Under the pieces are notes generated by a model. That model had not been told where the DNA came from. It ran no database searches and was given only the letters and a program-made list of their open reading frames with translations. The translations under genes and the position numbers were made by a program. From Buttiauxella gaviniae (lineage in GTDB: Bacteria > Pseudomonadota > Gammaproteobacteria > Enterobacterales > Enterobacteriaceae), in NCBI RefSeq assembly GCF_040786275.1, contig NZ_JBFMVT010000002.1, positions 992,001-1,056,000 of the forward strand: DNA of 64,000 nucleotides, in the 5' to 3' direction. Below are positions 27,647 through 56,121 of this stretch, piece by piece; the first letter of the stretch is position 1, and the number at the start of each line of letters is the position of its first letter.

Positions 27647-28003
27647 CTACCAGCTTAATAAAGGGCTTATCCCTTCATCCTGCACGAGTGCTCGTATGGC
27701 AGGTAATTGATTGCATTGCTGTAATAACGCAGGCAGCGGGAAAATATCGTGCTGGCGCAGCACCACATTCTCAAGCTCGCCCCATAAATACCATCCCTGC
27801 GCGATATTGCTTGCCGGAACGAACAGATGCAAATGCATGCCGCACTCCGGCTCATCGGGCAGACCCAGCCACTGGCTAAATCGCGGGATGTCAGGGGCTT
27901 CGTAATCCACCAGCACGCAGCTTTGCACCTGGGTCGCCGGAATATAAAAATGCTGGTTCCCGAGCGTGATACGCACCGCCGCAAGATTAAGCCCGTGAGT
28001 CAT
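27647..28003 (-). CDS. Small CheW-like protein ending the chemosensory operon
   Basis: 118 residues from the ATG at 28003, which has a GGAAAG ribosome site and overlaps the 3' end of the CheW gene. The N-terminal LNLAAVRITLGNQHFYIPATQVQSCVLV recalls the first strands of a CheW fold, but the remainder (LFVPASNIAQGWYLWGELENVVLRQHDIF) is not a standard CheW core. Family is not firmly recognised. In Wsp operons two CheW-type couplers (WspB and WspD) occur, so a second divergent coupler is a reasonable guess. Confidence 0.5.
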   Translation of the reverse strand: MTHGLNLAAVRITLGNQHFYIPATQVQSCVLVDYEAPDIPRFSQWLGLPDEPECGMHLHLFVPASNIAQGWYLWGELENVVLRQHDIFPLPALLQQCNQLPAIRALVQDEGISPLLSW

Positions 28004-28511
28004 AGCCGTTGCTTTCCAGGTAGCAATCAAAGACTAAATTCAAATCCAGCAGCGCAAAATACTCCTGCCCGACCGGAACAATCCCCACCACCACTTTCTG
28101 CATGGCGGCAGAGAGGTTTTCAGCGGCGGGATGAATCTGGCTTTCCGCAACATCCAGTACATCAATTAACCTGTCGATCTGAATCCCGCTTTGCATTTTC
28201 TTGCCGCGTCCAATCAAGATCATCCGTTTGCCGGGGATCTCCTGCAAAGGTGCGTCGATCAGCCGATTAATGTTAATCACCGATTCAAGGCGACCACGGT
28301 GATTGATCACCCCCACCAGCGACGGCGGGCAGCCCGGCACCCAGGAAATTGGGCGCTCGGCCAGAATCTCTTTGATGTCCGATCCGTAAAACGCAAAGTT
28401 TTTGTCGCCCAGCTTGAATAACACCAGGCTGCACTGCGGCTCGTCGACGTTGGCAATTTCGCGGTTTTCGTCGTGATAGTGACTTAAAATTTGCTCTAAT
28501 TGCTCGCTCAT
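27987..28511 (-). CDS. CheW-type coupling protein
   Basis: 174 residues. Residues about 25-165 form a CheW domain (SLVLFKLGDKNFAFYGSDIKEIL, WVPGCPPSLVGVINHRGRLESVINI, GIVPVGQEYFALLDLNLVF). It links the receptor to the CheA kinase at the membrane. Its ATG overlaps the stop of the GGDEF response-regulator gene by 4 bases. An N-terminal 24-residue acidic extension is present. Part of the eight-gene Wsp-like operon transcribed from 37330 downward. Confidence 0.9.
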   Translation of the reverse strand: MSEQLEQILSHYHDENREIANVDEPQCSLVLFKLGDKNFAFYGSDIKEILAERPISWVPGCPPSLVGVINHRGRLESVININRLIDAPLQEIPGKRMILIGRGKKMQSGIQIDRLIDVLDVAESQIHPAAENLSAAMQKVVVGIVPVGQEYFALLDLNLVFDCYLESNGYDSRA

Positions 28512-30196
28512 GCCACGTCCTTATCATTGGCGAGGCAATAGCGGTTGCGGCCATGCTGTTTTGCCGAGTACAACGCCTGGTCAGCACGCTCGCGAATCGT
28601 TTCGATTTTGTCGCCTTCTTGCCAGGACGCGATCCCGGCGCTGAAAGTGTTGCTGAACTGCGTCTGGTTGACCGAGAAATAGATCTTTTCGAATCCCTGA
28701 CGCAATCTTTCGACCACCGCCGCCGCCTGCTCTTTGGTGGTGCCCGGCATGATTATCGCGAACTCTTCCCCACCGTAGCGGCCAACAATATCGGTACTGC
28801 GCAGGCGGTGCGAGAAGAGCTGAGAGATCCCCAGAATCACCTGGTCACCCGCCACGTGGCCGTAAGTATCATTGATACTTTTGAAGTGATCCAAATCGAC
28901 CATCACCAGGCTGAATGGAATACCGCTGTAATTGGATTCGGTAATCGCGCTTTCCAGGTAGTGCGTGGTGGTTGAGTGGTTGTAAAGCCCGGTCAGACTG
29001 TCCTGCGACATGCGGGCACGCAGGGTACGCATTCTTTCCGCGCGAATCGAAACCGCGTTAATCAGCTCCTGCGGGTCAGCCTGCTTGATAATAAAATCTT
29101 CCGCGCCGGTGCTCATCGCCCCAAACTGCGTGGTTTTATTGGTTTCGCTCGACAGATAAGCAATAGGCAAACCGATATGCTGCGGGATCTGGCGAATCAG
29201 TTTGGTCAGCTCTTCGCCGCTGTAATCCGGCATGTGGAAGTCCATCAGCACAATATCGATGGGATGCGTATTCAGAACGTTCAGCAGGTGAGGAATATGC
29301 GTCAGAATATGCACTTCCATTCCCGCCATGCGCAGCATTTCCGCATTGTATTGCGCCACTTCCGGCTCATCATCAATCAGCAAAACCTGATACGGCTTTT
29401 TCAGCGAAGGCTGCGTTAAACGATGCAGCTCCTGGACTAAATCCGTGGTCGCCGCCGGTTTCACGTAGTAACCGTCGCACCCAGCTTTAATCGCGTTAAT
29501 GCGGGCGTGGAAATGGCTGTGGCAGGAAAGATAAAGCACCGGGAACGGCGTGCCGACTTTCTTTTTCAGATCCGACATCGCCAGCGGGCCGCCGTAGGCG
29601 TGCTCCGGGAAGCTGACATCCATAATCACCACTGACGGAGGCTGCGAAATCACCGCCTTGGTAAAATCAGCCGTATTGGTGAATACATAACAAATAAAGC
29701 CAAAGCAGCGCAGTTGCGTCGCCAGCAGTTCAGCCTGATCGCTTTCATCGTCACAAAGATAGACAGGCTTAATGGTGCGGTTAATCGCCACCTCTTCCTG
29801 AGTGGAGGCGGTTATCGGGAATTTAACTAACGAATCCCCGCCACGGCGCGCGCTTTCAGCCTGCTCTTCGGTCAGGGAGTAGAGCTGTTTTACGACCAGC
29901 TTCAGCTTTTGGTAAAGCGTTTCCGGGCGAGAATTACTCACTAACAGATGCTCACCTTCAGCGGCCTGGCTGGCAATTTTTGTAAAGCCAAACGAGGCGC
30001 TGGTGCCATGAATACTGTGCAACAGAAGATGCAGTTGTTTGCTATCCGCTTCATTTTCTTCAGCGATTAATCGGGCGAGCAGACCGTCTGCCTGTTTGAG
30101 CATATCGGGTATGCGTTGCAGAAAGCGCTCACGTAAACGAGCGATTTTATCCTGAGCAGTAGTCATTGTTTTTTGCGTTAATTCTTGTGTCATCAT
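28508..30196 (-). CDS. Hpt-REC-REC-GGDEF diguanylate cyclase, output of Wsp-like pathway
   Basis: 562 residues. Order: Hpt domain (about 1-115; HSIHGTSASFG with phosphate-accepting His60), receiver 1 (about 143-260; Asp193 in VVIMDVSFP), receiver 2 (about 268-390; acidic IDDE, Asp319 in VLMDFHMP, Lys371), GGDEF (about 398-558; GRYGGEEF active site at 475-479, I-site RSTD at 466-469). Both the active and inhibitory sites are intact, so it should make c-di-GMP with product inhibition. In Pseudomonas the counterpart WspR has only one receiver and no Hpt; extra Hpt and receiver imply a longer phosphorelay with the CheA and stand-alone receiver encoded upstream. Confidence 0.9.
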   Translation of the reverse strand: MMTQELTQKTMTTAQDKIARLRERFLQRIPDMLKQADGLLARLIAEENEADSKQLHLLLHSIHGTSASFGFTKIASQAAEGEHLLVSNSRPETLYQKLKLVVKQLYSLTEEQAESARRGGDSLVKFPITASTQEEVAINRTIKPVYLCDDESDQAELLATQLRCFGFICYVFTNTADFTKAVISQPPSVVIMDVSFPEHAYGGPLAMSDLKKKVGTPFPVLYLSCHSHFHARINAIKAGCDGYYVKPAATTDLVQELHRLTQPSLKKPYQVLLIDDEPEVAQYNAEMLRMAGMEVHILTHIPHLLNVLNTHPIDIVLMDFHMPDYSGEELTKLIRQIPQHIGLPIAYLSSETNKTTQFGAMSTGAEDFIIKQADPQELINAVSIRAERMRTLRARMSQDSLTGLYNHSTTTHYLESAITESNYSGIPFSLVMVDLDHFKSINDTYGHVAGDQVILGISQLFSHRLRSTDIVGRYGGEEFAIIMPGTTKEQAAAVVERLRQGFEKIYFSVNQTQFSNTFSAGIASWQEGDKIETIRERADQALYSAKQHGRNRYCLANDKDVA

Positions 30197-30221
30197 GATT
30201 TTGTCATTTCTTCAGCCGCGA

Positions 30222-30581
30222 TTAAGCCGCATCGCCTGGCTTGAGTATTTCGTTCACGACAGCCACCAGCCTTTCTGCCATATTTTCGTCTTTCTTTACC
30301 CAGCAATCAGGAATAACGGTGATATCCGTCATCTCGCTTGCGCTGAGTAAAATAAACGGTTTGTTCCAGCCGTTGGCGCGTAAAACTTCCAGCAGATCCA
30401 GGCCGGTAATTTCCGGCATATGGAAATCACTGATGACCAGTGCGATGTCGCTATCCGAATCCAGGTTGGCTAATGCGGTCATTGCGCTTTCGGCAATAAC
30501 GACTTCGTAGCCACTCATTTCCAGAAAGACCGAAGCCAGCTCTGCCGCAAACAGGTCATCATCAACTAATAATAAACGCAT
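30222..30581 (-). CDS. Stand-alone response-regulator receiver
   Basis: 119 residues, a single CheY-like receiver domain. Acidic pocket Asp7-Asp9 (LLLVDDD), phospho-acceptor Asp52 (LVISDFHMP), Ser at the switch (LLSAS) and Lys in VKKD. There is no output domain. It sits between cheA and the Hpt-REC-REC-GGDEF gene, so it may shuttle phosphate between them or act as a phosphate sink. Spacing to both neighbours is about 20-25 bases. Confidence 0.9.
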   Translation of the reverse strand: MRLLLVDDDLFAAELASVFLEMSGYEVVIAESAMTALANLDSDSDIALVISDFHMPEITGLDLLEVLRANGWNKPFILLSASEMTDITVIPDCWVKKDENMAERLVAVVNEILKPGDAA

Positions 30582-30602
30582 CTTTTTTCACCTATAAAGC
30601 CG

Positions 30603-32747
30603 TTAGCATAAAAGCATTTTTAATGTTTCTATGAGGCTATCCTGTTCGAAATCACCCTTGGCAATATAAGCATCCGCGCCCACCTGAATCCCTCTGCGGC
30701 GATCTTCTTCTTTAGCCCGTGACGTCACGATAATGATCGGAATATGTTGGTAATTTTCTTCCGCACGTAGCGCTTTGGTGAGAGAGAATCCATCCATCAC
30801 CGGCATTTCTACGTCCGTTAATACCGCGTCAAACTGCGTCAGACGCGCTTTTTGTAGCCCTGAGAAGCCATCTTCGGCGAGCGTCACCTGGTAGCCGTGC
30901 GCTTCGAGCACGTTTTTCTCAATTTCACGCGTGTTCAGGGAGTCATCGACGATCAGCACATGCCAGGTGTTCTGGCGAACTTCCGGCTTAGGTACGCTTG
31001 TGCGCGTCTGCCCCTGCTTTTGCGCCATCTCCATCAAGACGGGAACCTGCAAAATACTCACCAGTTGATTATTCTGGCTCAGCACCATGCCGGAGACTAA
31101 CGCCTGCTGCTGCATATGTTTCGGCAGCGGCTTAATCATCATGTTGCGCTCATCAAGCAGGTTATCCACCAGCATCGCCATCTTGCCAAACTGATTCTGA
31201 ATCACGATAAGCAGCAGGCTGTTCGCGGCAGATGCCTGGGAATTTTGGCTCCCCGGCCTTTCATTAATACGCAGTAATTCTGCGGCTGAAATCACCGGGA
31301 TAAATTCGTTGTGGCGAATAATCGCCGGGCGACCGGCAATATCACGAATGTCATCCCGCGAGTATTTCAGCACTTCAACCACATACTGCGCCGCCAGGCC
31401 GAAAAGATGGTTTTGCTGTTCAAACTGCAAAATACGCATCATCGCCAGCGAAATCGGCAGGCGGATAATAAAGGTCGTGCCCTGAGTTGGGCGACTGTGT
31501 ACCTGCAACGTGCCCTGGAGATCGGTGACAATCGTTTTGCGAACAATGTCTAACCCTACGCCACGGCCCGATAACTCCGTCACAATTTTGCTGGTTGAAA
31601 AGCCCGGGTGGAAAATCAGCTCGTTACATTCCAGCTCCGAAAGCTGATCCACCACGTCGGCGTCAACCAGGCCACGCGCCACCGCTTTGGCACGAATCGC
31701 CGGGTAATCCAGGCCACGCCCGTCATCTTCCACGCGCAGCAAAATACCGCGCCCGTCCTGTTGCGTCGTAAGCGTGATCGTCCCTCGGGCAGATTTCCCG
31801 CAGGCGGCACGTTCCGCAGCGGTACCGATACCGTGATCGATAGCATTGCGCAGCAGGTGAGTAAGCGGCTCAGACAGACGGTCGATGAGTTGGCGGTCGA
31901 TTTCTACTTCGCCCCCCAGAATGCGGCAGTCCACCTGTTTATTCAGGGAAGCGGCAAGCTCGCGCACCTGCATGGAGACGGGTTCAAACAGCATGGAAAC
32001 CGGCAGCATACGAATCGTGGTAGCCACGTCATACAGCTCATACATCTGGAGATTCTGCGCCTGAAAATCCTCTTTTAGCTTGCGGCTAAACTGTTGGATT
32101 TGCTGGCGAAGCTGGTCGGCATTCATCTGATCCAGGCGAGGCACCAGGTTCACTAAGTTTTGTACCTGCTGCTCAAGGCGATCGTGGCTGGCGACCACTT
32201 CCCCGAGAATGTTGATCAGGTCATCGAGCTTTTCGAGTTTTACCCGCACAGAGCTTGCCTGGTTCACCGCGCTGTCTGCGGCTTCGAGCTTCATCGTCAG
32301 CGCAGGGTTTTCTACCGGAGCCGGAGCAAGTTCCGTGGAAGGTGCGTCCATTTCGCCACGGCTGGCGCGAGCCAGACGTTCGCATAACGCGACATCGGCT
32401 GGAGGCAACTGGTTGTTCCCTTCGCTCGCCGAAAGCTGCGCCAGTTGGTCGGAAATATAATCCGTGGCTTGCAGGATCAGCGTGCCGAGTGCCTGGTCTG
32501 GGGCGAGCTTTTTGTCGCGAAGCTCGCTCAGTATCTCTTCAAGCTGATGGGTGACATCGGCAATGCTTTGCAATTTCAGCATGCGCGCGCCCCCTTTCAG
32601 GGTGTGGGCAGCACGAAACATCTCGCCGATTTGCGCGTCGGTATTTTCCCCTGATGAGAGTAAAAACGCCCCTTCCTTGACGATATGCAGATGGCCATTT
32701 GCTTCATCAATAAAGCGCAGCACAAATTTTTTAAGATCGATAGCCAT
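30603..32747 (-). CDS. CheA-REC hybrid histidine kinase, WspE-like
   Basis: 714 residues. N-terminal Hpt (about 1-110; His48 in FRAAHTLKGGARML), no P2 domain, dimerisation/HATPase region (about 165-430; LTHLLRNAIDHGIG, VEDDGRGLD, GRGVGLDIV), CheW-like P5 domain (about 435-570) and a C-terminal receiver (about 590-714; LIVDDSLNTRE, AVLTDVEMPVMDG, IIIVTSR, IAKGDF). The Hpt-HATPase-CheW-REC order is that of WspE and other alternative-function CheAs, not of flagellar CheA. It phosphorylates its own receiver and probably the downstream receivers. Confidence 0.92.
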   Translation of the reverse strand: MAIDLKKFVLRFIDEANGHLHIVKEGAFLLSSGENTDAQIGEMFRAAHTLKGGARMLKLQSIADVTHQLEEILSELRDKKLAPDQALGTLILQATDYISDQLAQLSASEGNNQLPPADVALCERLARASRGEMDAPSTELAPAPVENPALTMKLEAADSAVNQASSVRVKLEKLDDLINILGEVVASHDRLEQQVQNLVNLVPRLDQMNADQLRQQIQQFSRKLKEDFQAQNLQMYELYDVATTIRMLPVSMLFEPVSMQVRELAASLNKQVDCRILGGEVEIDRQLIDRLSEPLTHLLRNAIDHGIGTAAERAACGKSARGTITLTTQQDGRGILLRVEDDGRGLDYPAIRAKAVARGLVDADVVDQLSELECNELIFHPGFSTSKIVTELSGRGVGLDIVRKTIVTDLQGTLQVHSRPTQGTTFIIRLPISLAMMRILQFEQQNHLFGLAAQYVVEVLKYSRDDIRDIAGRPAIIRHNEFIPVISAAELLRINERPGSQNSQASAANSLLLIVIQNQFGKMAMLVDNLLDERNMMIKPLPKHMQQQALVSGMVLSQNNQLVSILQVPVLMEMAQKQGQTRTSVPKPEVRQNTWHVLIVDDSLNTREIEKNVLEAHGYQVTLAEDGFSGLQKARLTQFDAVLTDVEMPVMDGFSLTKALRAEENYQHIPIIIVTSRAKEEDRRRGIQVGADAYIAKGDFEQDSLIETLKMLLC

Positions 32748-32755
32748 ACGGTTCT

Positions 32756-34180
32756 CTATTGCCCATCCTGACTGGTGAACTGCGCCAACTGATGTTCACA
32801 AAGAAAACGAAACGAATTAGTCGGAAATGAGAGCGGCAGCCGCAGAGCGCAGGCGCTCGCCGTGTTGTTCATTTCCGCATTGAGTAATTGCAATGTAATG
32901 CGATAGGTTCGCGCAGCCGGGCGCGGGAGCTCGCTCTGGCGGTACATTTCTGCCAGATAATAGTGCGCAGGCCAGTAGCCAGGCTGTTGATAAACCACCT
33001 GTTTAAACCACGCAATGGCCTGCTGGGTGTGGTGCTGCCACATCATGGCAAGGCCGAGCAGCATTTTTGCTTCCGCCGACCACTCATCAAGCTCCAGAAC
33101 CTGCTGTGCGCTCTGAGCCGTTTGCTCAAATTCACATTTTTCCAGCGCAATGGCCGCTTTAATCACCAGCGCTTCCTGGTGCTGCGCATCGCTATTTAAC
33201 ACCTGATTTATCAACGTTTCGGCTTCGGCAAAGCGCTTGTCTGCCACACAGGTGAGCGCTTTTTTGATCCAGATATCGCACTGCTGCGAGGTCGGCATCG
33301 GAGCTGCCACAAACGGCGCTTGCGCAGGCGCAACCGGGGTGACGATTCGAGGCGGTACGCTGGCCGTCGGCGTCGGAGCACGTGCGGTTTTCGGCTGGCA
33401 GAAATAAAAATGCCCGTGCTCTTGCTTGAGCTTCAGAATGCCAAAGTTATTGGCGAGCGTTTCCGCATTGCCGAAGAACAGCGCCCCTTCGGGTTGCAGC
33501 ATGTTTAACAAGTTAAAATGCAGCAGGCGGCGCGTTTCGACATCAAAGTAAATTGAGACGTTTCGCAGCAAAATAATATCGAACTGAGGCTGGAGCTGTT
33601 CTTTGACGATATTTGAACGGTGGAATTTCACCTTATTGCGAATCAGGTCATGCAACTGAAACTGGTTCCCGTTGCGCGTGAAATAGTTTTGCTGCAATAA
33701 AGGATCGACGCCGCGAAACGAGTAGCTGGAATAGTTTGCCGCCCGGGCTTTTTCCAGAATTTTGGTATCGATGTCGCAGCCATGAATGTCCACCCGATCC
33801 GCAAAGGCCTCGTGGTATTTCTGGTGAAGTTTAATCGCCAGCGAGTAGGCTTCTTCCCCGGATGAACAGCCCGCGCTTAAAATACGCACCGGCCCTTCGC
33901 GCTGATTCAGAATACGCGGCACCAGTTTTTCGCAGACGATGTCCAACACTTCCGGTTCGCGGAAGAAATAGGTTTCGTTGATGGTCAGCAGGCTCAGGAG
34001 CTTATCGAACTCAATCGTCGATACGCAGAGCACCTCGTAATATTGCTCGCAGCTCTCCTTTCCCCGCTCGGTCATCCGCTGGTGCAGTGCCGCATTTAAC
34101 AATCCTTCCATGCCGTTAAAAAAATGCAGACCCACCCTTTCTTTAATCAGTGTTTTAAAGGCCGCAATATTTGGGATCAT
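32756..34180 (-). CDS. CheR methyltransferase with C-terminal TPR, WspC-like
   Basis: 474 residues. CheR N-terminal helical domain (about 1-75), SAM-dependent methyltransferase domain (about 85-270; VRILSAGCSSGEEAYSLAI, GCDIDTKILEKAR, IILLRNVSIYFD, LFFGNAETLAN), Pro/Ala-rich linker (about 275-305), then tetratricopeptide-like helices (about 310-440; AEAETLINQVLNSDAQHQEA, YYLAEMYRQSELPR). CheR fused to TPR is typical of WspC. It methylates glutamates of the receptor. Its ATG overlaps the cheB stop by four bases. Confidence 0.9.
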   Translation of the reverse strand: MIPNIAAFKTLIKERVGLHFFNGMEGLLNAALHQRMTERGKESCEQYYEVLCVSTIEFDKLLSLLTINETYFFREPEVLDIVCEKLVPRILNQREGPVRILSAGCSSGEEAYSLAIKLHQKYHEAFADRVDIHGCDIDTKILEKARAANYSSYSFRGVDPLLQQNYFTRNGNQFQLHDLIRNKVKFHRSNIVKEQLQPQFDIILLRNVSIYFDVETRRLLHFNLLNMLQPEGALFFGNAETLANNFGILKLKQEHGHFYFCQPKTARAPTPTASVPPRIVTPVAPAQAPFVAAPMPTSQQCDIWIKKALTCVADKRFAEAETLINQVLNSDAQHQEALVIKAAIALEKCEFEQTAQSAQQVLELDEWSAEAKMLLGLAMMWQHHTQQAIAWFKQVVYQQPGYWPAHYYLAEMYRQSELPRPAARTYRITLQLLNAEMNNTASACALRLPLSFPTNSFRFLCEHQLAQFTSQDGQ

Positions 34181-35247
34181 GGCAGTTTGCCCTCAGCTTG
34201 CCCGTGACGCGCCATCGCTATTAAAGCCCCTGCGAGCTTTTCCAGCGGAAGAATTTTGTGGATAACGTTTTTATCGATGGCAAATTTATTCATGCCAAAC
34301 ACCACGGAAGTGACTTCATCCTGCGCCAGGGTTTTACCGCCTTGCTGATAAATAGCCTCTATGCCACGGCAGCCATCGCTCCCCATGCCGGTCATGATGA
34401 GCCCGACCGCTTTGTCACGGTAAACTTCCGCCACGGACTCCAGCAGCAAATTACAGCTCGGGTGATAAACATCGCTCGCCTTACGCGCAATGGCGGCTAA
34501 GCGGTGATGTTTTTTGACCACCAGATGATGCTCCGGCGGCAGGATATAAACGCTGCCCGCGCGCAGCAGATCGTTCTCCAGGGCGAGCTGCACGTTAAGT
34601 TCGGTGACGCTATCGAGCCACTCCACCATGCTTTTCGCAAACCCATCGGCGATGTGCTGCGCGATGATAATTGGGCAGGGAAAAGCCGCAGGCAGCGCCT
34701 GGAGTAATTTGCTCAGAGCCTGCGGCCCACCGGTTGAGCAGGCAATCGCCAGCACGTACGGCCACGGTTGATGCAGATCGTTGGCGGCGATGTCTACCGG
34801 AGCGCTCTTCACCGGGGCATCCGCATGGTTACGCAAGCCCTGGATATGGCGAATCACCTTCACGCCCACCAGCATTTCGACCTGGCGATGCAACGCTTTG
34901 GTTGCCTGCGCCGACTCCCCAGGGTTGCTGACGACCGCCAATGCGCCACGGGTAATGTATTCCGCATCCCACTGCGCATCTGCGTAGTAGCGCATCACCA
35001 TGATCGGAATAGCGCAGGTCGCCATAATCGTTTCGATGGTTTCGACGTTTTCGCGGTCGGGCGCGCCTAACGTCAGCACCAGCAGTTGCGGCGCCATTTT
35101 TTTCACCAGGCTCGCCGCTTGCTCGCGGTGTACCGCCTGGCCCACCACCAAAATGTTCTTATTTATCTCGAGCTGTCGGATCAGATCATTGCGTAACTCT
35201 CCGCCATGATCGACGATCAGCACGCGGATATTAGGCGCGCTCATCAA
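34177..35247 (-). CDS. cheB: CheB methylesterase with degenerate receiver
   Basis: 356 residues. The methylesterase domain (about 160-350) is intact: Ser171 in ACSTGGPQAL, His198 in IIAQHIADGF, Asp291 in GMGSDGCRG. The N-terminal domain has the receiver outline (IRVLIVDHGGELRNDLIRQL) but the acidic pair is Asp-His, the phospho-acceptor position reads Thr59 (LLVLTLGAP where active CheBs have LDVEMP), and the switch Ser/Thr is lost (IMVMRYY). It therefore cannot be activated by Asp phosphorylation. It overlaps the receptor gene end by 17 bases. Confidence 0.9.
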   Translation of the reverse strand: MMSAPNIRVLIVDHGGELRNDLIRQLEINKNILVVGQAVHREQAASLVKKMAPQLLVLTLGAPDRENVETIETIMATCAIPIMVMRYYADAQWDAEYITRGALAVVSNPGESAQATKALHRQVEMLVGVKVIRHIQGLRNHADAPVKSAPVDIAANDLHQPWPYVLAIACSTGGPQALSKLLQALPAAFPCPIIIAQHIADGFAKSMVEWLDSVTELNVQLALENDLLRAGSVYILPPEHHLVVKKHHRLAAIARKASDVYHPSCNLLLESVAEVYRDKAVGLIMTGMGSDGCRGIEAIYQQGGKTLAQDEVTSVVFGMNKFAIDKNVIHKILPLEKLAGALIAMARHGQAEGKLP

Positions 35248-37330: not shown

Positions 37331-37423
37331 GGGTATCCAATTTTATAATGAAGTAAAATAAGGGCTGATTGATTACTTTGTATACCCTAAGTCATTGGAT
37401 GACGGGTATTTTTCTCAGCGATG

Positions 37424-39616: not shown

Positions 39617-40331
39617 GTATTTAACCTGTTAAGTATGCTGTGTGCTATTTAAGTGGCTGGGTGAGTGTCTGAGTAAAGGGGCAGCATCATGCCGCAGAGA
39701 TTAATAAATAAAACAAATAGCGTAATTAATTAACATTTATACCTACCGTAAAAAATAACGCACCTTTTTTTTGTAGGGGTATAAACACAAACAATTAATT
39801 AACAAATACCATTGATTGTTTTTAATAAATTTAATGACAAATAAACGACAAATTCATAAGCATTCTCAAATCATTTTTAATTGTATTCATTTTTCGAGCA
39901 AAAAAGAACTGCCATTTATAGGTAAAAATGGACAGTTTAATGACCTATGAAATAGCTTTTAATGAATCAAAATAAAATCACAACCACATGTTTTTGATGG
40001 AAATAACCAAAACAAACAGTGACTCTAACAAATTCCACACTGTAGATTGAAGGACAATATTCATCAGCATTAAACGTCTTTATTTAACTGGAACGTTAAA
40101 GAGAATCAATCATTCAATTAATTAGCGTTTAGTGTGCATTTTTTATCGTTGACTTGCCCCCCAGGGTTATCTATAGTCCCGCCGCGTATTTTCGCCTTTA
40201 TTTATTTTAGCATCAACAATGTTACACAATCGTTTATCATTGTTGACACAACGTCTGACACTCTTCATAAAAAAACTCACATAAACGCAACAGCCAGACA
40301 ATATATCGCATTGAGTTAATTTTTTTAATTC
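39617..40331. other. 715-base intergenic region between divergent c-di-GMP genes
   Basis: AT-rich control region between the PdeF-like gene (minus) and the GGDEF-EAL operon (plus). I find no convincing gene, RNA or known operator here. A 61-codon frame at 40134-40319 has no ribosome site or recognisable product. Promoters for both operons should lie here. Confidence 0.5.
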
Positions 40332-42563
40332 ATGAATCATTCGTATTCTTCAGGAAACCAACAATCTGTGGCTAAAAGTTTTTTCTCGCTTAAAAGCGTA
40401 AAAGGTTGGCACCATTCTATTGCAGGGAAAATCACCCAGTTTTTACTGGCGGGTATTCTTGTTGCATTTGGTGCAGGTGCGTGTGCCGGTTGGGGCCTAA
40501 TAGACAGCTTCTCGTATCAACAATGGGTGCACCAGGCTGAAGCGAATGCTCAGATCATGACGTATATCGTCCGTAACGTTTACACCAACGTTGCCGTAGG
40601 AACCAGCCCAACCGGGCAGATCACCCGTATCGTCTCAGAACATAAATTGGGCGATCCGGATTCCGTTATTCAAACGGGCTATAACCCCGTCGACGTTTTG
40701 GCTCTGACCTCGGTTCAAACCCGTAACCCAACGTGGCTTTTCCTCTATACCCCGGAAAAAGGTTTCCAGGGCATCAGCAATAATTCCGAAGCGCCCGAAG
40801 CCAAAATTCACTTCAAAGGTGAAAAAGCGACCGATGTCCTGGTGAATTATTACATTGGCTTCGCAGCGATAAACGGCAAAGAGTGTTTCATTAGCGCCGT
40901 TCCTATCCTTTCTCCATCAGGTGAAATCTTAGGAAGTTTAATCAGCAGTATCGGTGACAAGAGCCAGCTCTACGCCGCGTATGACGCGATGCTCAAGAAA
41001 ACCCTGGTGATTCTGACGTTGATTTTGCTCGGCACACTCGCGCTGGTGACGCTGTTTATGCGCCGCCTGTTCCGCCCGGTTCCGCTGCTGATTAACTCTT
41101 TGACGCGCATTGCGCATGAACAAACTGACTTGATTACCCCGTATTTAGATCAGGATGATGAAATCGGCAAGCTTGCCGCCGCCATTGAAAAACTCCGTGT
41201 CGCGATGGTGGAGCGTGATTACCTGCAACGTATGCAGGATATGTCGCAAAAAATGGAATACATGGCGCACCATGACTCCCTCACCGGTTTCCCGAACCGC
41301 GCCTCGTTTAGCCAGGCGCTGGATAAGTGCATCCGCGAAGTGAATCAGAACGGGCAGCTATTCAACCTGCTGCTTATCGATCTCGATAACTTTAAGCCGG
41401 TGAATGATACCTTCGGCCACACGGCGGGGGATGAGGTGCTGATCGGCGTCGCCCAGCGTCTTTCACTCCTGTTAGGCCCGATGGATTTTGCAGCACGTTT
41501 AGGCGGGGACGAATTTGCGATTTTGCAAAGCGTGAAGTCTGACAACTGCCAGGAAGCGGCTGCGCTGTCGCAGAAAATTGTGCGGGCGTTAAGTATTCCC
41601 TTCACCTACGGCACACATTCATTCGCCATCAGCTGTAGCGTGGGGATTGTTACCGCCCCTTCACAGGGCAATAGCGCCACCACGCTGATGATTAATGCCG
41701 ACCTGGCACTGTATGCTTCAAAACACAGCGGACGCGGCTGCTACCACTTCTTTGAAGATGGCATGATGATGAAGCACACCAACAGCGTGTTCGTTAACCA
41801 GGAAATCATCAACGGCATTGATAACAACGAGTTTGTGCTGCACTACCAGCCAATTATCGACCTGGAAAATGAAACGGTTTGCGGCTACGAATCCCTTATT
41901 CGCTGGAATCATCCGAGCAAGGGTCTGATCTACCCTGACTACTTTATTAATATTGCCGAAGAGTCCGGGCTGATTATTCGTTTGGGTGAGTGGATTATTC
42001 GTGAGTCTTGTATGGCTGCCGCCAAATGGCCGGAATCAATCAAAGTCGCGGTTAACGTTTCGGCTTATCAATTACATGGCCCAGGCCTGATTGATATTAT
42101 TGTTGATGCCCTAAAACAGAGCGGGCTTGCGGCAAATCGTCTGGAAATTGAAGTGACTGAATCGGAAAAACTGGATCAGTCGATAGCGCTGCCGGTCTTT
42201 AATAAAATTCGTGAAATGGGCATCTCTATTGCAATGGATGACCTGGGCACCGGTTACGCCGCGCTGGATTACCTGCTGATTTACCCGTTCACGCGAATTA
42301 AAATCGCGCGCACGCTGATTATGAAACTGGAGCAAGAAAGTGCCAGCCAATATCTGGTGGTGATGCTTATTCAGTTTGCGCAAAAATATGGCATGAGCGT
42401 TACCGCCGAAGGGGTTGAAACCGATCAACAGCGCACGATTTTGCGTCGTATCTCTTGTCAAAATGTACAGGGCTACTACTACAGCCGACCGTTGCCAGAA
42501 AAAGATCTGGAGCCAACATTTGGCAATAAAGTCAAAGACGGGGAAGTCTGTGATGTTACGTAA
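40332..42563 (+). CDS. Membrane GGDEF-EAL dual-domain protein
   Basis: 743 residues. TM1 about 33-57, periplasmic sensor about 58-225 (with NPTWLFLYTPEKGFQG; Cache/CHASE-like), TM2 about 226-248, HAMP-like linker, coiled segment, GGDEF (about 320-485; ARLGGDEFAIL intact, I-site Arg lost, GPMD) and EAL (about 495-735; ESLIRWNHP, VAVNVSAYQL, EIEVTESE, MDDLGTGYA, EGVE, NVQGYYYSRP). The motif after strand 6 is IKIARTL where active enzymes usually have KID, so phosphodiesterase activity is uncertain. First gene of an operon with two solute-binding proteins, LapG and LapD. No clear ribosome site. Confidence 0.88.
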   Translation: MNHSYSSGNQQSVAKSFFSLKSVKGWHHSIAGKITQFLLAGILVAFGAGACAGWGLIDSFSYQQWVHQAEANAQIMTYIVRNVYTNVAVGTSPTGQITRIVSEHKLGDPDSVIQTGYNPVDVLALTSVQTRNPTWLFLYTPEKGFQGISNNSEAPEAKIHFKGEKATDVLVNYYIGFAAINGKECFISAVPILSPSGEILGSLISSIGDKSQLYAAYDAMLKKTLVILTLILLGTLALVTLFMRRLFRPVPLLINSLTRIAHEQTDLITPYLDQDDEIGKLAAAIEKLRVAMVERDYLQRMQDMSQKMEYMAHHDSLTGFPNRASFSQALDKCIREVNQNGQLFNLLLIDLDNFKPVNDTFGHTAGDEVLIGVAQRLSLLLGPMDFAARLGGDEFAILQSVKSDNCQEAAALSQKIVRALSIPFTYGTHSFAISCSVGIVTAPSQGNSATTLMINADLALYASKHSGRGCYHFFEDGMMMKHTNSVFVNQEIINGIDNNEFVLHYQPIIDLENETVCGYESLIRWNHPSKGLIYPDYFINIAEESGLIIRLGEWIIRESCMAAAKWPESIKVAVNVSAYQLHGPGLIDIIVDALKQSGLAANRLEIEVTESEKLDQSIALPVFNKIREMGISIAMDDLGTGYAALDYLLIYPFTRIKIARTLIMKLEQESASQYLVVMLIQFAQKYGMSVTAEGVETDQQRTILRRISCQNVQGYYYSRPLPEKDLEPTFGNKVKDGEVCDVT

Positions 42564-43467
42564 CGCTTTGGTTAGCAAAATCTCATGCGTGGCTTTTCTG
42601 CTGATGTTTTTGGCAAGTACGCCGTGCCTGGCGCACGGTACACACAGCAAAAAAACCCTTGAGAAAATAGCCGAAACCAAGACCATTACCCTCGGCTACC
42701 AGGATGATGCTTTCCCGTTTTCCTATGTAGAAGCCCAACAACCGGCCGGTTATTCCATCGATATTTGCAAGAAAGTCGTGGATGCGATTAAAACTAAACT
42801 GAAGGTCAAAGACCTTAAAGTTCGCTGGATCAAAAGCAGCACTGCCTCTCAGTTTGTTTTAATCAAAAATCATGTCGCCGATATGATGTGCATTCCTGCA
42901 TTTTATTCAGACCTGCGCCATCAAAAAGCCGAGTTCTCCCTGCCCTACTTCTTCTCCAGTACACGTTTTATCACGCGCAAAAATAACAATATCGACACCA
43001 TCGAAGATTTGGCCGGGCACAGTGTATTAGTCAAAAGCGGTACGCTTTATGTTGAGCAAGTCCATAACATTAATAAAAAGGACGATCTCAATTTAAATAT
43101 CGAGCTCGATAACAATAACAAATCGGCATTCGAAGAAGTCCAGGCCGGTGAATTACCCGCGTTGATTTCCAGCGCAGCTATTCTGCGAGGCATGGCGGTA
43201 CTTTCACCCAAGCCCGATGAACTGGAAATTTCTAAAGATGCGTTAAGCCCGCCGATTCCGGCAGGTTTTTTACTCCCGCTTGAAGACAGCGAATTTAAAA
43301 GTTTCCTTGATGTGACGATGCAGGCGATTCTCACCAGCAAAGATTTCGTGGCGCTTTACCAGCGGTGGTTCCAGTCTCCGATCCCGCCGAAAGCCGTTAA
43401 TCTTAATCTTCCTATGTCGGCGAGTCTCAAAGCACTGATTACATCTACATCGAATTATGCGTACTAA
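42553..43467 (+). CDS. Orphan periplasmic solute-binding protein 1 (amino-acid type)
   Basis: 304 residues from the ATG at 42553, overlapping the GGDEF-EAL gene by 11 bases. Signal peptide (KISCVAFLLMFLASTPCLA) then a family 3 solute-binding fold (TITLGYQDDAFPFSYVEAQQPAGYSIDICKKVVDAI, VADMMCIPAFYSDLRHQKAEFSLPYF, IEDLAGHSVLVKSGTLYVEQV). Such proteins bind amino acids for ABC importers, but no permease or ATPase is nearby. In this operon it is more likely a sensory binding protein that reports a ligand to a membrane partner. A Cys pair (about 70 and 117) may form a disulphide. Confidence 0.82.
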   Translation: MLRNALVSKISCVAFLLMFLASTPCLAHGTHSKKTLEKIAETKTITLGYQDDAFPFSYVEAQQPAGYSIDICKKVVDAIKTKLKVKDLKVRWIKSSTASQFVLIKNHVADMMCIPAFYSDLRHQKAEFSLPYFFSSTRFITRKNNNIDTIEDLAGHSVLVKSGTLYVEQVHNINKKDDLNLNIELDNNNKSAFEEVQAGELPALISSAAILRGMAVLSPKPDELEISKDALSPPIPAGFLLPLEDSEFKSFLDVTMQAILTSKDFVALYQRWFQSPIPPKAVNLNLPMSASLKALITSTSNYAY

Positions 43468-44329
43468 GATGAAAAAGTCATTTAACTGCAAAATCATGCT
43501 TTTATTCAGGTCGTTGGCGCTGTTATCCCTGATTATGATGTCGTACTCGCTGCGCGCCACGCCGGTTTCGCCGACGTTTGAACACATTAAATCAAGCGGT
43601 ACCTTAAACATTGGTTATCGCCAGCTCGATCCCTTTTCCTATAAAGATCAGGATGGCAAAATCACCGGTTACACCATCACCGTGTGTAACATGATTGCTG
43701 AAGAGCTACGCCTGACGCTCGGCTTAAAAAAACTGGCGATTCATTATATTCCGGTTATTTTTTCCCAGCGGATCAATGCGCTAAACAGCAATAAAATCGA
43801 TATGGACTGTAGCGTTAATACCGATGCGCCCGAAAGAAAAAACAGCGTCTCTTTCTCAATCGACTATTATGTCGCCAATATGCGCGTCATTTCTCTGCGT
43901 AAAAATAATATTCAAACGCTTAATGATTTAAAGGGCCATGCCGTGAGCGTGCCGCGCGGTTCTAAAGATTTGTTAGAGGTGAATAAAGTTAATCGTGAGA
44001 AACATCTCAACCTTTCGATTGTGACTTCAGATACAGTGCAGGATGCCTTTGATATGATGGTTCAGCACCGTACCGCCGCCATTTTGTTAGATGATATTCT
44101 GGCTTACCCCATGATAAACCGCAGTCCTCATCCTGAAGGTTTCACCGTTTCCAAAGAAGTGGTGGGTGAGAAAATGAAATATGCGATTATGATGAGAAAA
44201 CAGGACCCGCTATTTGTCGCTTTTATCAACAAAACGCTTGAGAATATCTTTGAGTCGCCAGTAAATACTCAAATGACAAACAAGTGGTTGGGACAGAAGA
44301 TCGCGGTAAAAAAGATGCATAACAACTAA
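43457..44329 (+). CDS. Orphan periplasmic solute-binding protein 2 (amino-acid type)
   Basis: 290 residues; ATG at 43457 overlapping the previous gene by 11 bases (an in-frame ATG at 43469 is possible). Signal peptide about 1-34 (IMLLFRSLALLSLIMMSYSLRA), then family 3 solute-binding domain (TLNIGYRQLDPFSYKDQDGKITGYTITVCNMIAEEL, IDMDCSVNTDAPERKNSVSFSIDYY, LNDLKGHAVSVPRGSKDLL, AAILLDDILAYPM). Paralogue of the preceding protein, diverged. No transport genes occur in the operon, pointing to a signalling role next to LapG/LapD. Confidence 0.82.
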   Translation: MRTKMKKSFNCKIMLLFRSLALLSLIMMSYSLRATPVSPTFEHIKSSGTLNIGYRQLDPFSYKDQDGKITGYTITVCNMIAEELRLTLGLKKLAIHYIPVIFSQRINALNSNKIDMDCSVNTDAPERKNSVSFSIDYYVANMRVISLRKNNIQTLNDLKGHAVSVPRGSKDLLEVNKVNREKHLNLSIVTSDTVQDAFDMMVQHRTAAILLDDILAYPMINRSPHPEGFTVSKEVVGEKMKYAIMMRKQDPLFVAFINKTLENIFESPVNTQMTNKWLGQKIAVKKMHNN

Positions 44330-44352
44330 ATAACGCTTCTTATCAATCGGAC

Positions 44353-45057
44353 GTGTCATTGAACCCTGTAAGCAAATTTTTGCAAACCCGATTATCCCGG
44401 TGCCTCATTGTTTCTGGCGTGCTGATATTACTCCTGGCGGGGAGTTCATTACGTGCGGCCTGGGACTTCACCACCATTCAACAACGGGCCGATGCGCTTT
44501 ATGGCCCTGCAAGTCGCGACGGCGAAAACCGGATCAATGACTGGCAGCAACTGTTACTCCAACAGCGCAATCAAAGTGAAAACGCACAATTAAACGCGGT
44601 AAACCGCTTTTTTAACCAAAAGCTGCACTATCGCGAAGATATTGATATCTGGAATGCGGTTGATTACTGGGCAACACCGATAGAGTCGCTGCGAAAAGGG
44701 GAGGCAGATTGTGAAGATTACGCAATCGCCAAATATTTCACACTACGTCAATTAGGTGTTTCAGGAGAAAAGCTGCGTATTACCTACGTTAAAGCCTTAC
44801 GCCTTAACCGGGCGCATATGGTATTAACCTGGTATGCAACACCCGACGCCATTCCTATTGTACTGGACAGTTTGACAGACAGTCTCTCGCCTGCAACGCA
44901 GCGCTCTGACTTAATGCCTGTTTACTCCTTTAACGATAGCGGTCTGTGGTTGCCAGGAAGTCAGAATAATAAACGTGTCGGGGATAGTAAGCGCCTTTCT
45001 CGCTGGCAGGATGTATTGAAAAAAATGCGGGAAGAAGGTTTCCCGATTGATGAATAG
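44353..45057 (+). CDS. lapG: LapG-type periplasmic cysteine protease
   Basis: 234 residues, GTG start at 44353. N-terminal signal/anchor (about 17-36) and a bacterial transglutaminase-like cysteine protease domain. Catalytic triad Cys120 (GEADCEDYAIAKY), His155 (NRAHMVLTW) and Asp172 (IVLDSLTD). The His-Asp spacing (17) equals that of P. fluorescens LapG (172/189), and the Cys-flanking DCED carries the acidic calcium-ligand residues. LapG cuts the N-terminal retention module of LapA-type adhesins, releasing them. LapD follows 9 bases later; the likely substrate is the giant adhesin at 58392-64000, whose N-terminal cleavage site is outside the window. Confidence 0.93.
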   Translation: MSLNPVSKFLQTRLSRCLIVSGVLILLLAGSSLRAAWDFTTIQQRADALYGPASRDGENRINDWQQLLLQQRNQSENAQLNAVNRFFNQKLHYREDIDIWNAVDYWATPIESLRKGEADCEDYAIAKYFTLRQLGVSGEKLRITYVKALRLNRAHMVLTWYATPDAIPIVLDSLTDSLSPATQRSDLMPVYSFNDSGLWLPGSQNNKRVGDSKRLSRWQDVLKKMREEGFPIDE

Positions 45058-45066
45058 GATAAGCCT

Positions 45067-47004
45067 GTGTCTCTTTTCAAACAGCTTCTTATAGCTATCT
45101 TTCTTTTTATGCTGATCATTTTCAGCGGTAGTTTTATTGTTAATCTCGAAAGTTCTCGCGAGCAATACAATAACCAGCTTCTTTCTCATGCGCAGGATGC
45201 GGCAACCGCATTGGGCTTGTCGTTAACGCCGCATGTTGACGATCCGGCGATGATTGAGCTGATGGTCAGCTCTATTTTTGATAGCGGTTATTACGACGCG
45301 ATTCGCGTGATCGATCAGTCCAACGGCAAAACGATTCTTGAGCGCACCGCCGCCTCCGCTATTCCTGAAGTGCCTCACTGGTTTGTAAAACTGGTGAATG
45401 TCTCCCCGCAGGCCGGTGAAGCGACGATTATGCGTGGCTGGCAGCAGGCGGCGCGGGTTGAAGTCGTCAGTAATCCGGTCTTTGCGATTAAGCGCTTATG
45501 GGAAAGCACCCTGGCAAATCTGCTATGGATGATGGCCTGTGGGGTAATCTGTATTCTGGCAGGTGCCTTACTGTTACGCCGTCAGCTTCGTCCGCTCAAT
45601 TATATGGTGAAGCAGTCCCAGGCCATTACGCGCCGTGAATATCTGACCCAAATGGACTTGCCGAAAACCCCTGAGCTGCGCCGCGTGGTTGAAGCCATGA
45701 ACCTGATGGTCACCAAGCTGAAATCGCTGTTTGAAGACCAGGCCGAGCACAGTGAACGCCTCCACAACGAAGCTTATCTCGACAGCCAGACCGGGATTGC
45801 TAACCGCCGCGCCTTCGATTTGCAGATGCAGACTCGCCTGAGCGATGAAGAAACCGCGCCGGGCTATTTGCTGTTGCTACGTATTCAGGATTTGGGTGGT
45901 TTGAACCAACGCTTTGGCGGCCCGCATACCGATAACCTGTTAAAACACGTCGCCGACATGATGACCGTGGCGAAAAATCAGTATGCCAGCGCCGACAGCA
46001 TCGTGGCCCGTATTCGCGGGGGCGAGTTCGCCCTGCTCTGCCCGGGTGTGACGCACAACGAAATGTTGAATCTGCAACACTCCCTGACCCAGCAGCTTTC
46101 CGCGTTTTACGCCACCGGCATGTCCGACATTAACCCTGTCGCACACACCGGCATGGTTCCGTTTAGCTCCGGCGATGCTCCGCACGCGCTTATCGTTCAG
46201 GCGGACCGCGCCTTGATGGAAGCAGAAACGCGTACCACACACCAAACTAACGATGTGCCCGTGCCTGACAGCGCTGCGGCAGAAGACCAGCATCTGTGGT
46301 TTAACCGTCTTGAGAACGCGCTGAATAAAGAGCTGTTCCAGCTATTCTTCCAGCCGGTCGTGGACTGTAAAAATCCGCAAAAAATCATTCATTACAAAGT
46401 ACTGTCGCGCATCGTTGATGAAGACGGGAACAGCATTACGGCGGGCCGTTTCTTGCCGTGGATTCACCGATTTGGCTGGAGCCATCGCCTCGATCAGGTG
46501 ATGTTGAGCCTGACGCTGAAACAGTTGAAAACCTATTCAGGTTCGTTGGCGCTCAGTTTGTCTGGTCATTCGCTTGCCAATGAAGTGACCATTAAGCAGT
46601 TGCTTACTCCATTGAAAATGCACCCGCAGCTCGCCAGCCGGTTAATTCTGGAGCTGGATGAGAATCAACTGCCAGAGCCAGAACAGATGGAAGTGTTTGT
46701 TAAATCGCTCAATCAGTATGGCTGTCGCCTGGGTCTGCAACACTTCGGTAGCCGCTTCGATATGATCGGCCACTTCTCGCAGTGGGGTCTGGCTTACCTG
46801 AAAATCGACTCCAGCTATATCCGCCATATTGATGTCGAAAATGATAAGCGTCTATTTATCGATGTGCTGCATAACGCCACCAACAACATTGATTTGCCGT
46901 TGATCGCCGAACGCGTTGAAACCGAAGGTGAATTGCGCGTTCTGCAGGAAGTGGGAATTTATGGGGCGATGGGTCAGTTGTTGGGTGAACCTGCGCCGTT
47001 TTGA
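45067..47004 (+). CDS. lapD: LapD-type c-di-GMP receptor controlling LapG
   Basis: 645 residues, GTG start. TM1 about 5-26; periplasmic output domain with Trp125 in MRGWQQAARV, at the position of the LapG-capturing Trp125 of P. fluorescens LapD; TM2 about 150-170; HAMP; degenerate GGDEF (RIRGGEFALL) and degenerate EAL (KVLSRI in place of EAL, LQHFGSRFD in place of DDFGTG). Loss of both catalytic motifs is as expected for a receptor. When c-di-GMP binds the EAL pocket, the periplasmic domain holds LapG and the adhesin stays on the surface. Last gene of the operon. Confidence 0.94.
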   Translation: MSLFKQLLIAIFLFMLIIFSGSFIVNLESSREQYNNQLLSHAQDAATALGLSLTPHVDDPAMIELMVSSIFDSGYYDAIRVIDQSNGKTILERTAASAIPEVPHWFVKLVNVSPQAGEATIMRGWQQAARVEVVSNPVFAIKRLWESTLANLLWMMACGVICILAGALLLRRQLRPLNYMVKQSQAITRREYLTQMDLPKTPELRRVVEAMNLMVTKLKSLFEDQAEHSERLHNEAYLDSQTGIANRRAFDLQMQTRLSDEETAPGYLLLLRIQDLGGLNQRFGGPHTDNLLKHVADMMTVAKNQYASADSIVARIRGGEFALLCPGVTHNEMLNLQHSLTQQLSAFYATGMSDINPVAHTGMVPFSSGDAPHALIVQADRALMEAETRTTHQTNDVPVPDSAAAEDQHLWFNRLENALNKELFQLFFQPVVDCKNPQKIIHYKVLSRIVDEDGNSITAGRFLPWIHRFGWSHRLDQVMLSLTLKQLKTYSGSLALSLSGHSLANEVTIKQLLTPLKMHPQLASRLILELDENQLPEPEQMEVFVKSLNQYGCRLGLQHFGSRFDMIGHFSQWGLAYLKIDSSYIRHIDVENDKRLFIDVLHNATNNIDLPLIAERVETEGELRVLQEVGIYGAMGQLLGEPAPF

Positions 47005-55805: not shown

Positions 55806-56121
55806 GATTAATTCCTTCATCTTTAATAACGTCATTGTAATAACCGCTATCCATTAAGGATTGTCGGTCTGCTTTTGATAATCATAACTATCGTTACAAA
55901 GATGAATAATAAAGGCATCATGAAATTAATCACGTCATCCTGCATCATGTTATCAATTTCTATTTTTAATAATCACAAAAACAACTGGTGATGATATAAA
56001 ACAATAACAACCTGAGTATATTTGATGCGCAATGAGTTGCTTGAGTTTCCTGACCCTTTATTATCCACACCGTTGTCACCAATTTCGGTGGCGCGAAACT
56101 CAATCGAAAAGGATTATGATT

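Follow-up and report, generated by a model that had tools for sequence, protein, structure and literature searches.

A chemosensory operon of the Halomonas cluster 2 type conserved beside lapG and lapD in Buttiauxella and Citrobacter

The window analysed here, a 64,000-nucleotide stretch of Buttiauxella gaviniae DNA (bases 992001–1056000 of contig C2 in a 4.76 Mb genome, G000), carries two divergent gene runs. The minus-strand run (39616 to 27647) holds genes for an EAL protein, a chemoreceptor, CheB, CheR-TPR, CheA with a receiver domain (REC), a stand-alone REC, an Hpt-REC-REC-GGDEF diguanylate cyclase, CheW and a small CheW-like protein (CheW3). The plus-strand run, beginning at 40332, encodes a GGDEF-EAL protein, two binding proteins of family 3, LapG and LapD. 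Features were located from lists of open reading frames and by Pfam, with NCBIfam cut-offs also used for LapG, LapD and the adhesin module, and every gene named in the original prediction, made from the sequence of this stretch, was found where it had been placed. Also borne out was its description of an alternative-function chemosensory operon with a diguanylate cyclase as output, which is conserved beside lapG-lapD. The gap between operon and lapG was 13,937–14,410 bases in all 22 genomes (12 Buttiauxella, 10 Citrobacter), so that the co-occurrence check in relatives proposed with the prediction came out in its favour.

Residue tallies below cover the window protein and its orthologues from 17 named relatives (10 Buttiauxella records and 7 Citrobacter, picked by receptor match alone). 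The prediction counted eight genes in the operon; these eight are real, but a ninth at its head had been overlooked. This gene (37424–39616, minus strand, as for all genes of this run) encodes an EAL phosphodiesterase (Pfam EAL, 2.7e-63) with an N-terminal membrane region and a degenerate GGDEF region, Pfam giving no GGDEF match for it. All 18 proteins retain the EAL active-site residues E, D, D and E. The gene lies upstream of the receptor gene, in the same direction, in 17/17 named loci, and because the spacing is short (93 bp in the window, 45–140 bp in the 17 relatives), the operon probably comprises nine genes, EAL included. The receptor (35231–37330) has a Cache_3-Cache_2 sensor, HAMP and MCPsignal domains by Pfam, and in alignment its signalling hairpin is 27–28 residues longer than those of the Tsr entries 3zx6 and 1qu7, as expected of the 40H class; these PDB entries served as the length reference since no receptor was found in the canonical che region L163.

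The next gene encodes the CheB methylesterase (34177–35247; CheB_methylest 2.1e-56). The acceptor Asp of its receiver is replaced in all 18 proteins (the window's and L072–L088), by Thr in 17 and by Ala in one; the receiver Lys is lost and the T/S position is Val in all 18, and the S/H/D triad of the esterase is kept in all 18. From the loss of these receiver residues we infer that CheB here would not be switched on by the kinase. It is followed by a CheR methyltransferase with C-terminal TPR (32756–34180; CheR 1.7e-47 plus TPR matches), the CheA histidine kinase with its C-terminal receiver (30603–32747; Pfam Hpt, H-kinase_dim, HATPase, CheW and Response_reg), and the stand-alone, CheY2-like receiver (30222–30581; Response_reg 3.2e-13). 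The P1 His and REC Asp of CheA, and the Asp and Lys of the stand-alone receiver, are kept in 18/18. The same is true of the Hpt His, both REC Asp residues, the GGEEF motif and the RxxD site of the cyclase (28508–30196; Pfam; best PDB match PleD), which is the operon's output and the only enzyme here with receiver domains, i.e. the only one addressable by the kinase.

The last two genes encode CheW (27987–28511; CheW 6.1e-21) and CheW3 (27647–28003), the ATG of which overlaps the end of cheW. CheW3 is conserved in 17/17 relatives. Its prediction as CheW-like found no Pfam match, and comparing its profile with that of the neighbouring CheW yielded no match either (hhalign probability 0.2), but the 17 best PDB matches of its AlphaFold model, a middling one (mean pLDDT, the predicted local distance difference test score, 60.7), were all CheW or CheA entries (best expectation value (E) 1.1e-3), and it is this fold search that points to an aberrant CheW. 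The genome has a separate CheA-CheW pair elsewhere, as well as a 324-aa frame with a CheW domain that we named CheV-like from our own reading. Since the receptor belongs to a class longer than Tsr, mixing of this array with the canonical chemotaxis array appears unlikely; the 2018 Halomonas paper discussed below, in the part available, argues against mixing of 40H and 36H receptors (PMC5907407).

In the plus-strand run the genes overlap or are closely spaced. The membrane GGDEF-EAL protein (40332–42563) has an intact GGDEF motif and is without an RxxD site (Pfam, motifs). Two orphan periplasmic binding proteins follow (42550–43467, SBP_bac_3, PDB 6.6e-40; 43457–44329, SBP_bac_3, PDB 2.5e-30), both with 2ia4/2vha as nearest structure, which we take to be the glutamate/aspartate binding protein. 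LapG, a periplasmic cysteine protease (44353–45057), and LapD, a receptor for cyclic di-GMP (c-di-GMP; 45067–47004), both score above their NCBIfam equivalog cut-offs (NF045674, 365.8 against 320 bits; NF045673, 1066.3 against 1020 bits) and match PDB entries 4u65 (1.8e-86) for LapG and 3pjw (1.3e-134) and 3pjv for LapD, presumably all P. fluorescens structures. The C/H/D residues of LapG are kept in 18/18, and LapD carries the degenerate RGGEF and KVL motifs. In a LapG tree the Buttiauxella and Citrobacter proteins formed one clade (100/100), apart from 14 other LapGs of the family.

A giant adhesin had been predicted to start 11 kb further on. An adhesin is indeed there, but position 58392 is the 3′ end of a minus-strand gene that starts at C2:1067302, outside the window (L007:393-17303:-), so that 58392–64000 holds the C-terminal part only of a LapA-type protein of 5,636 residues. 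At the N-terminus this protein scores as a LapA retention module (NF033682, 128.3 against 50 bits), and its sole [TPA]AAG motif is TAAG at residues 103–106. Divergent from it are outer-membrane, ABC and membrane-fusion genes of a type I secretion system, and the window genome thus holds adhesin, retention module, cleavage motif and secretion genes. Three proteins are encoded in a row past the secretion genes (L008:6210-12138): one PTS-EIIC-like with an EAL domain, one MHYT-GGDEF and one MASE1-EAL. An RHS-repeat protein is encoded at 52014–55835, between the LapD and adhesin genes, and a second retention-module protein, its module 87% identical, lies about 2 Mb away (G000:C2:3099662-3100087). 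Of the 30 genome entries searched (two entries being repeats of the same genomes), 29 yielded a retention-module protein, and the only entry without one, G033, was also without the cyclase and LapG. The adhesin start lies on the lapG contig, 11.9–30.9 kb away, in 5 of 12 Buttiauxella (G000, G003, G006, G008, G009), and the adhesin–lapG distance in Citrobacter was 14.4 kb in G260 and 13.2 kb in G177.

The full gene set of both runs (EAL through CheW3, GGDEF-EAL through LapD) was present in 17/17 named loci, and gene order was constant at 56–77% protein identity. Because the set recurs in all 17 relatives, found by the receptor alone, it is not a chance assembly. The cyclase and LapG were both present in 12/12 Buttiauxella genomes, while of 17 Citrobacter genomes 10 had both on one contig and 7 had neither. 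In the family sample the cyclase was found in 6/295 genomes (2/154 genera) and LapG in 40/295 (19/154 genera), and all six cyclase-bearing genomes have LapG. Association values of 5e-5 (Citrobacter) and 4e-6 (family) ignore kinship and were not used as tests. No match was found in 20,395 E. coli records by megablast, and 3 of 72,556 plasmid records matched at E 1e-60, none of them enterobacterial.

The block occupies different chromosomal settings in the two genera. In all three Citrobacter genomes read (G260, G671, G1050) its end adjoins mutS, rpoS, nlpD, pcm, surE, truD and ispD, and in G260, the sole genome read on the far side, there are frames reading as sitABCD, fhlA and hypE; the gene names on both sides were assigned by us from the translations. 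A search of the window and of L007, L008 and L009 for the seven mutS-side genes found none. When flank frames of at least 200 aa were compared (36 from Buttiauxella, 28 from Citrobacter), the shared ones were island genes (the secretion genes, one 200-aa gene and one regulator), and matches were otherwise at paralogue level (28–36%). The same block with different neighbours in Buttiauxella and Citrobacter means that its content has been kept between different flanks. The fhlA–mutS interval is a known island hot spot, which according to the part of the source available holds Salmonella pathogenicity island 1 (SPI-1) in Salmonella (PMC7232297).

Order-wide, a match to the cyclase at E 1e-20 or better was found in 43/394 genomes, and among the matches listed outside Buttiauxella cyclase identity was 21–39%. 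Eleven regions around such matches were inspected. Three (L101–L103), from other families of the order, have the Hpt-REC-REC-GGDEF gene beside a different che cluster, convergent to it and adjoining cheB; in the other eight no che cluster was detected by tblastn (L111 gave short partial CheA matches only). A LapG-family protein is encoded elsewhere in two of the genomes of L101–L103 (G528, G656), and none was found in the third (G464). A generic linkage of Hpt-REC-REC-GGDEF proteins to this setting was rejected.

Between the two runs lies a divergent, presumably regulatory region (39617–40331). It contains a promoter-like TTGACT-17-TATAGT at 40149–40177 (+), and in a promoter and terminator scan of the region promoter-like sites were no commoner than in shuffled sequences. 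An inverted repeat, CTGCCATTT...AAATGGACAG, at 39909–39936 is a possible candidate operator; one arm falls within a better-conserved stretch of the 18 aligned regions. Rfam at the gathering threshold returned one tRNA only in the window, L007 and L008, and no c-di-GMP riboswitch.

To which kind of chemosensory system the operon belongs was addressed through gene order and CheA. The original prediction read it as having the layout of Pseudomonas Wsp, and a true Wsp system would be an orthologue that senses surface contact. The same kinds of part are present (CheR-TPR, CheA-REC, two CheW-type proteins, a longer receptor and a GGDEF output), yet in gene order, gene content and CheA phylogeny the operon agrees with Halomonas cluster 2 and not with Wsp. 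The comparator for Wsp was a single system, G990, recognised by its WspR match (cyclase to 3bre at 4.1e-102), with a contig that starts past the receptor gene; its order is CheW, CheR-TPR, CheW, CheA-REC, CheB, REC-GGDEF, as expected of Wsp, whereas the window has an Hpt-REC-REC-GGDEF output, an extra REC and a different order. In a maximum-likelihood CheA tree, for which the program warned of long branches, the Buttiauxella and Citrobacter proteins (100/100) joined three cluster 2 rows (100/100), with 31 others, G990 included, apart. Window CheA is 43–45% identical to those three rows and 31% to the G990 protein. Wsp orthology was rejected on gene order, cyclase architecture and the CheA tree, and with orthology so contradicted a Wsp system here is very improbable.

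When 369 genomes of the class were searched with CheA, a draw in which no other Buttiauxella or Citrobacter was among the matches, only G1036 and G905 exceeded 40% identity besides the window's own genome. Both matches lie in cluster 2-like neighbourhoods, although CheB was not found in G905. G1036 was read as Halomonas because it has nearly the same CheB as Halomonas sp. PA16-9 and a neighbouring CheA branch, and the receptor-to-CheW order of the window also occurs in PA16-9 (L161/L175) and in G1036. The window thus has the cluster 2-type gene order, with CheW3 assigned by fold.

We interpret the block as one sensory-effector module, in which the cyclase of a cluster 2-type array feeds LapD and so controls adhesin retention, and we give this interpretation a probability of roughly 60%. 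A periplasmic signal at the receptor Cache domain would act on the CheA-REC array, phosphate would reach the receivers of the Hpt-REC-REC-GGDEF protein by way of REC and Hpt, and the phosphorylated cyclase would make c-di-GMP. By analogy with known family biology, the LapD encoded next door would then bind c-di-GMP and hold LapG, so that the giant adhesin would keep its N-terminal plug and stay on the cell; with the array silent, or with c-di-GMP removed by the EAL enzyme of the operon, LapG would cut at TAAG and the adhesin would be shed. The GGDEF-EAL protein and the two amino-acid-type binding proteins may form a second input, one possible parallel being NspS-MbaA of Vibrio cholerae. In this scheme we infer the phosphate route, the signal direction and the ligand, and also the step from cyclase to LapD, namely that this cyclase, rather than the others of the genome, supplies LapD; that step gains support from the linkage and from two precedents, P. 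aeruginosa wspF/lapG and a P. fluorescens Cache-domain cyclase. The arrangement suggests that sensing directly controls sticking.

Several observations weigh against such a module. The genome has many other GGDEF proteins, a search with this cyclase giving 44 matches in G000. In the family sample 34 of the 40 lapG-bearing genomes have no match to this cyclase, and Lap systems can therefore do without it. Conversely, about 1 Mb separates lapG and the operon in Halomonas G1036 and no lapG was found in G905, so the operon occurs in other settings too. The adhesin start is on another contig than lapG in 7/12 Buttiauxella, split contigs that give no distance, and two Citrobacter have no adhesin at the locus. 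In one of these, G671 (L174), the retention module lies 1.8 Mb from lapG, and lapD and the secretion genes remain neighbours; in the other, G1050 (L165), no adhesin was found between lapD and the secretion genes, and the only retention module found, in a genome read in stretches and not searched whole, is at a second Lap locus.

In a different account, the two operons travel together as a c-di-GMP island, the array regulates motility, cellulose or other matrix, and LapD draws on the global pool or is supplied by the neighbouring GGDEF-EAL protein with its binding proteins. Such a passenger linkage would fit the operons of G1036 and G905 and the two Citrobacter in which array and lapGD stay without an adhesin at the locus, as well as the separate run of overlapping or close genes from GGDEF-EAL to LapD and the further EAL and GGDEF genes past the Buttiauxella secretion genes. 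It accords poorly with the co-presence without exception in 17 Citrobacter genomes and with an order kept both at 56–77% protein identity and between different flanking genes, and we consider it rather unlikely.

A second account gives the decisive output to the EAL enzyme that the first gene of the operon encodes: a ligand would turn the kinase off and the adhesin would be released on cue, making the array a dispersal sensor. The EAL gene does lead the operon in every named locus, with its active site intact, and the cluster 2 gene list of the 2018 paper, as far as that text was available, is without an EAL gene (PMC5907407). We nevertheless regard this account as improbable, the cyclase being the only enzyme with receiver domains and hence the one that the kinase could address.

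Returning to the module in which the cyclase feeds LapD, a stronger form would make the retention or release of one adhesin the array's dedicated output, with the cyclase handing c-di-GMP locally to LapD. Kinase-to-methylesterase feedback would be cut in this form because CheB would no longer be phosphorylatable, and an array without CheB feedback would report signal level or keep a lasting state instead of adapting. We offer it tentatively, as something well short of an even chance. If adhesin retention is the output, it would be an output predictable from the neighbouring genes for an alternative-function chemosensory pathway, in a genetically compact case; the conserved LapD-LapG linkage gives cluster 2-type operons a testable output in Buttiauxella and Citrobacter, and, given the dead CheB receiver, one may ask how adaptation works in an array of this kind.

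Each half of the block was known apart. Cluster 2 of Halomonas titanicae KHS3 was described in 2018 with the gene order of the window and an aberrant CheW3, and was reported from the Order Enterobacteriales; a word search for Citrobacter, Enterobacter and Buttiauxella found none of these genera named in the available part of that paper, and the words LapD, LapG and adhesin are absent from its main text (PMC5907407). In the same available part, its authors call the function of cluster 2 speculative until experiments are done (PMC5907407). A 2011 paper, in the portion available, aligned the LapD of Citrobacter ATCC 29220. Among the matches listed in the open literature there was no paper describing the array–lapGD linkage and no enterobacterial locus with both parts together, in agreement with the original prediction; the joint block and the dead CheB receiver are new.

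Compared with known systems, the operon is most like Halomonas cluster 2, sharing with it the order receptor, CheB, CheR-TPR, CheA-REC, CheY, Hpt-REC-REC-GGDEF, CheW, CheW3 and a 40H receptor. It differs in that EAL leads the operon, a gene absent from the published list in its available form (PMC5907407), in the Cache_3-Cache_2 sensor of its receptor, in its dead CheB receiver (two Halomonas CheB proteins retain the acceptor Asp, Lys and T/S sites), and in being joined to lapG-lapD and mostly also to adhesin and secretion genes. With Pseudomonas Wsp it has the kinds of part named above in common, and is set apart by order, cyclase architecture, the extra REC and CheA phylogeny; a word search of a 2021 survey on the evolution of Wsp found no mention of Enterobacter or Citrobacter in its main text (PMC8552884). 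The Lap half resembles LapA-LapD-LapG of P. fluorescens in its equivalog-level LapG and LapD, its retention module with TAAG and its type I secretion genes, and differs in being joined to a chemosensory operon and two orphan binding proteins. In P. fluorescens, according to the part of the report available, a cyclase with a Cache domain influences LapD through physical contact with it (PMC6050961). A functional parallel to the whole is P. aeruginosa Wsp/CdrA/LapG, where a c-di-GMP pathway of chemosensory type and an adhesin cleaved by LapG contribute to the same phenotype: in the available part of that study, the phenotypes of lapG were demonstrated in a high-c-di-GMP wspF background, and aggregation was abolished by transposon insertions in wspA, wspD and wspR (PMC4694147). 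There c-di-GMP was raised by a wspF mutation, whereas in Buttiauxella and Citrobacter both gene sets stand in one conserved block.

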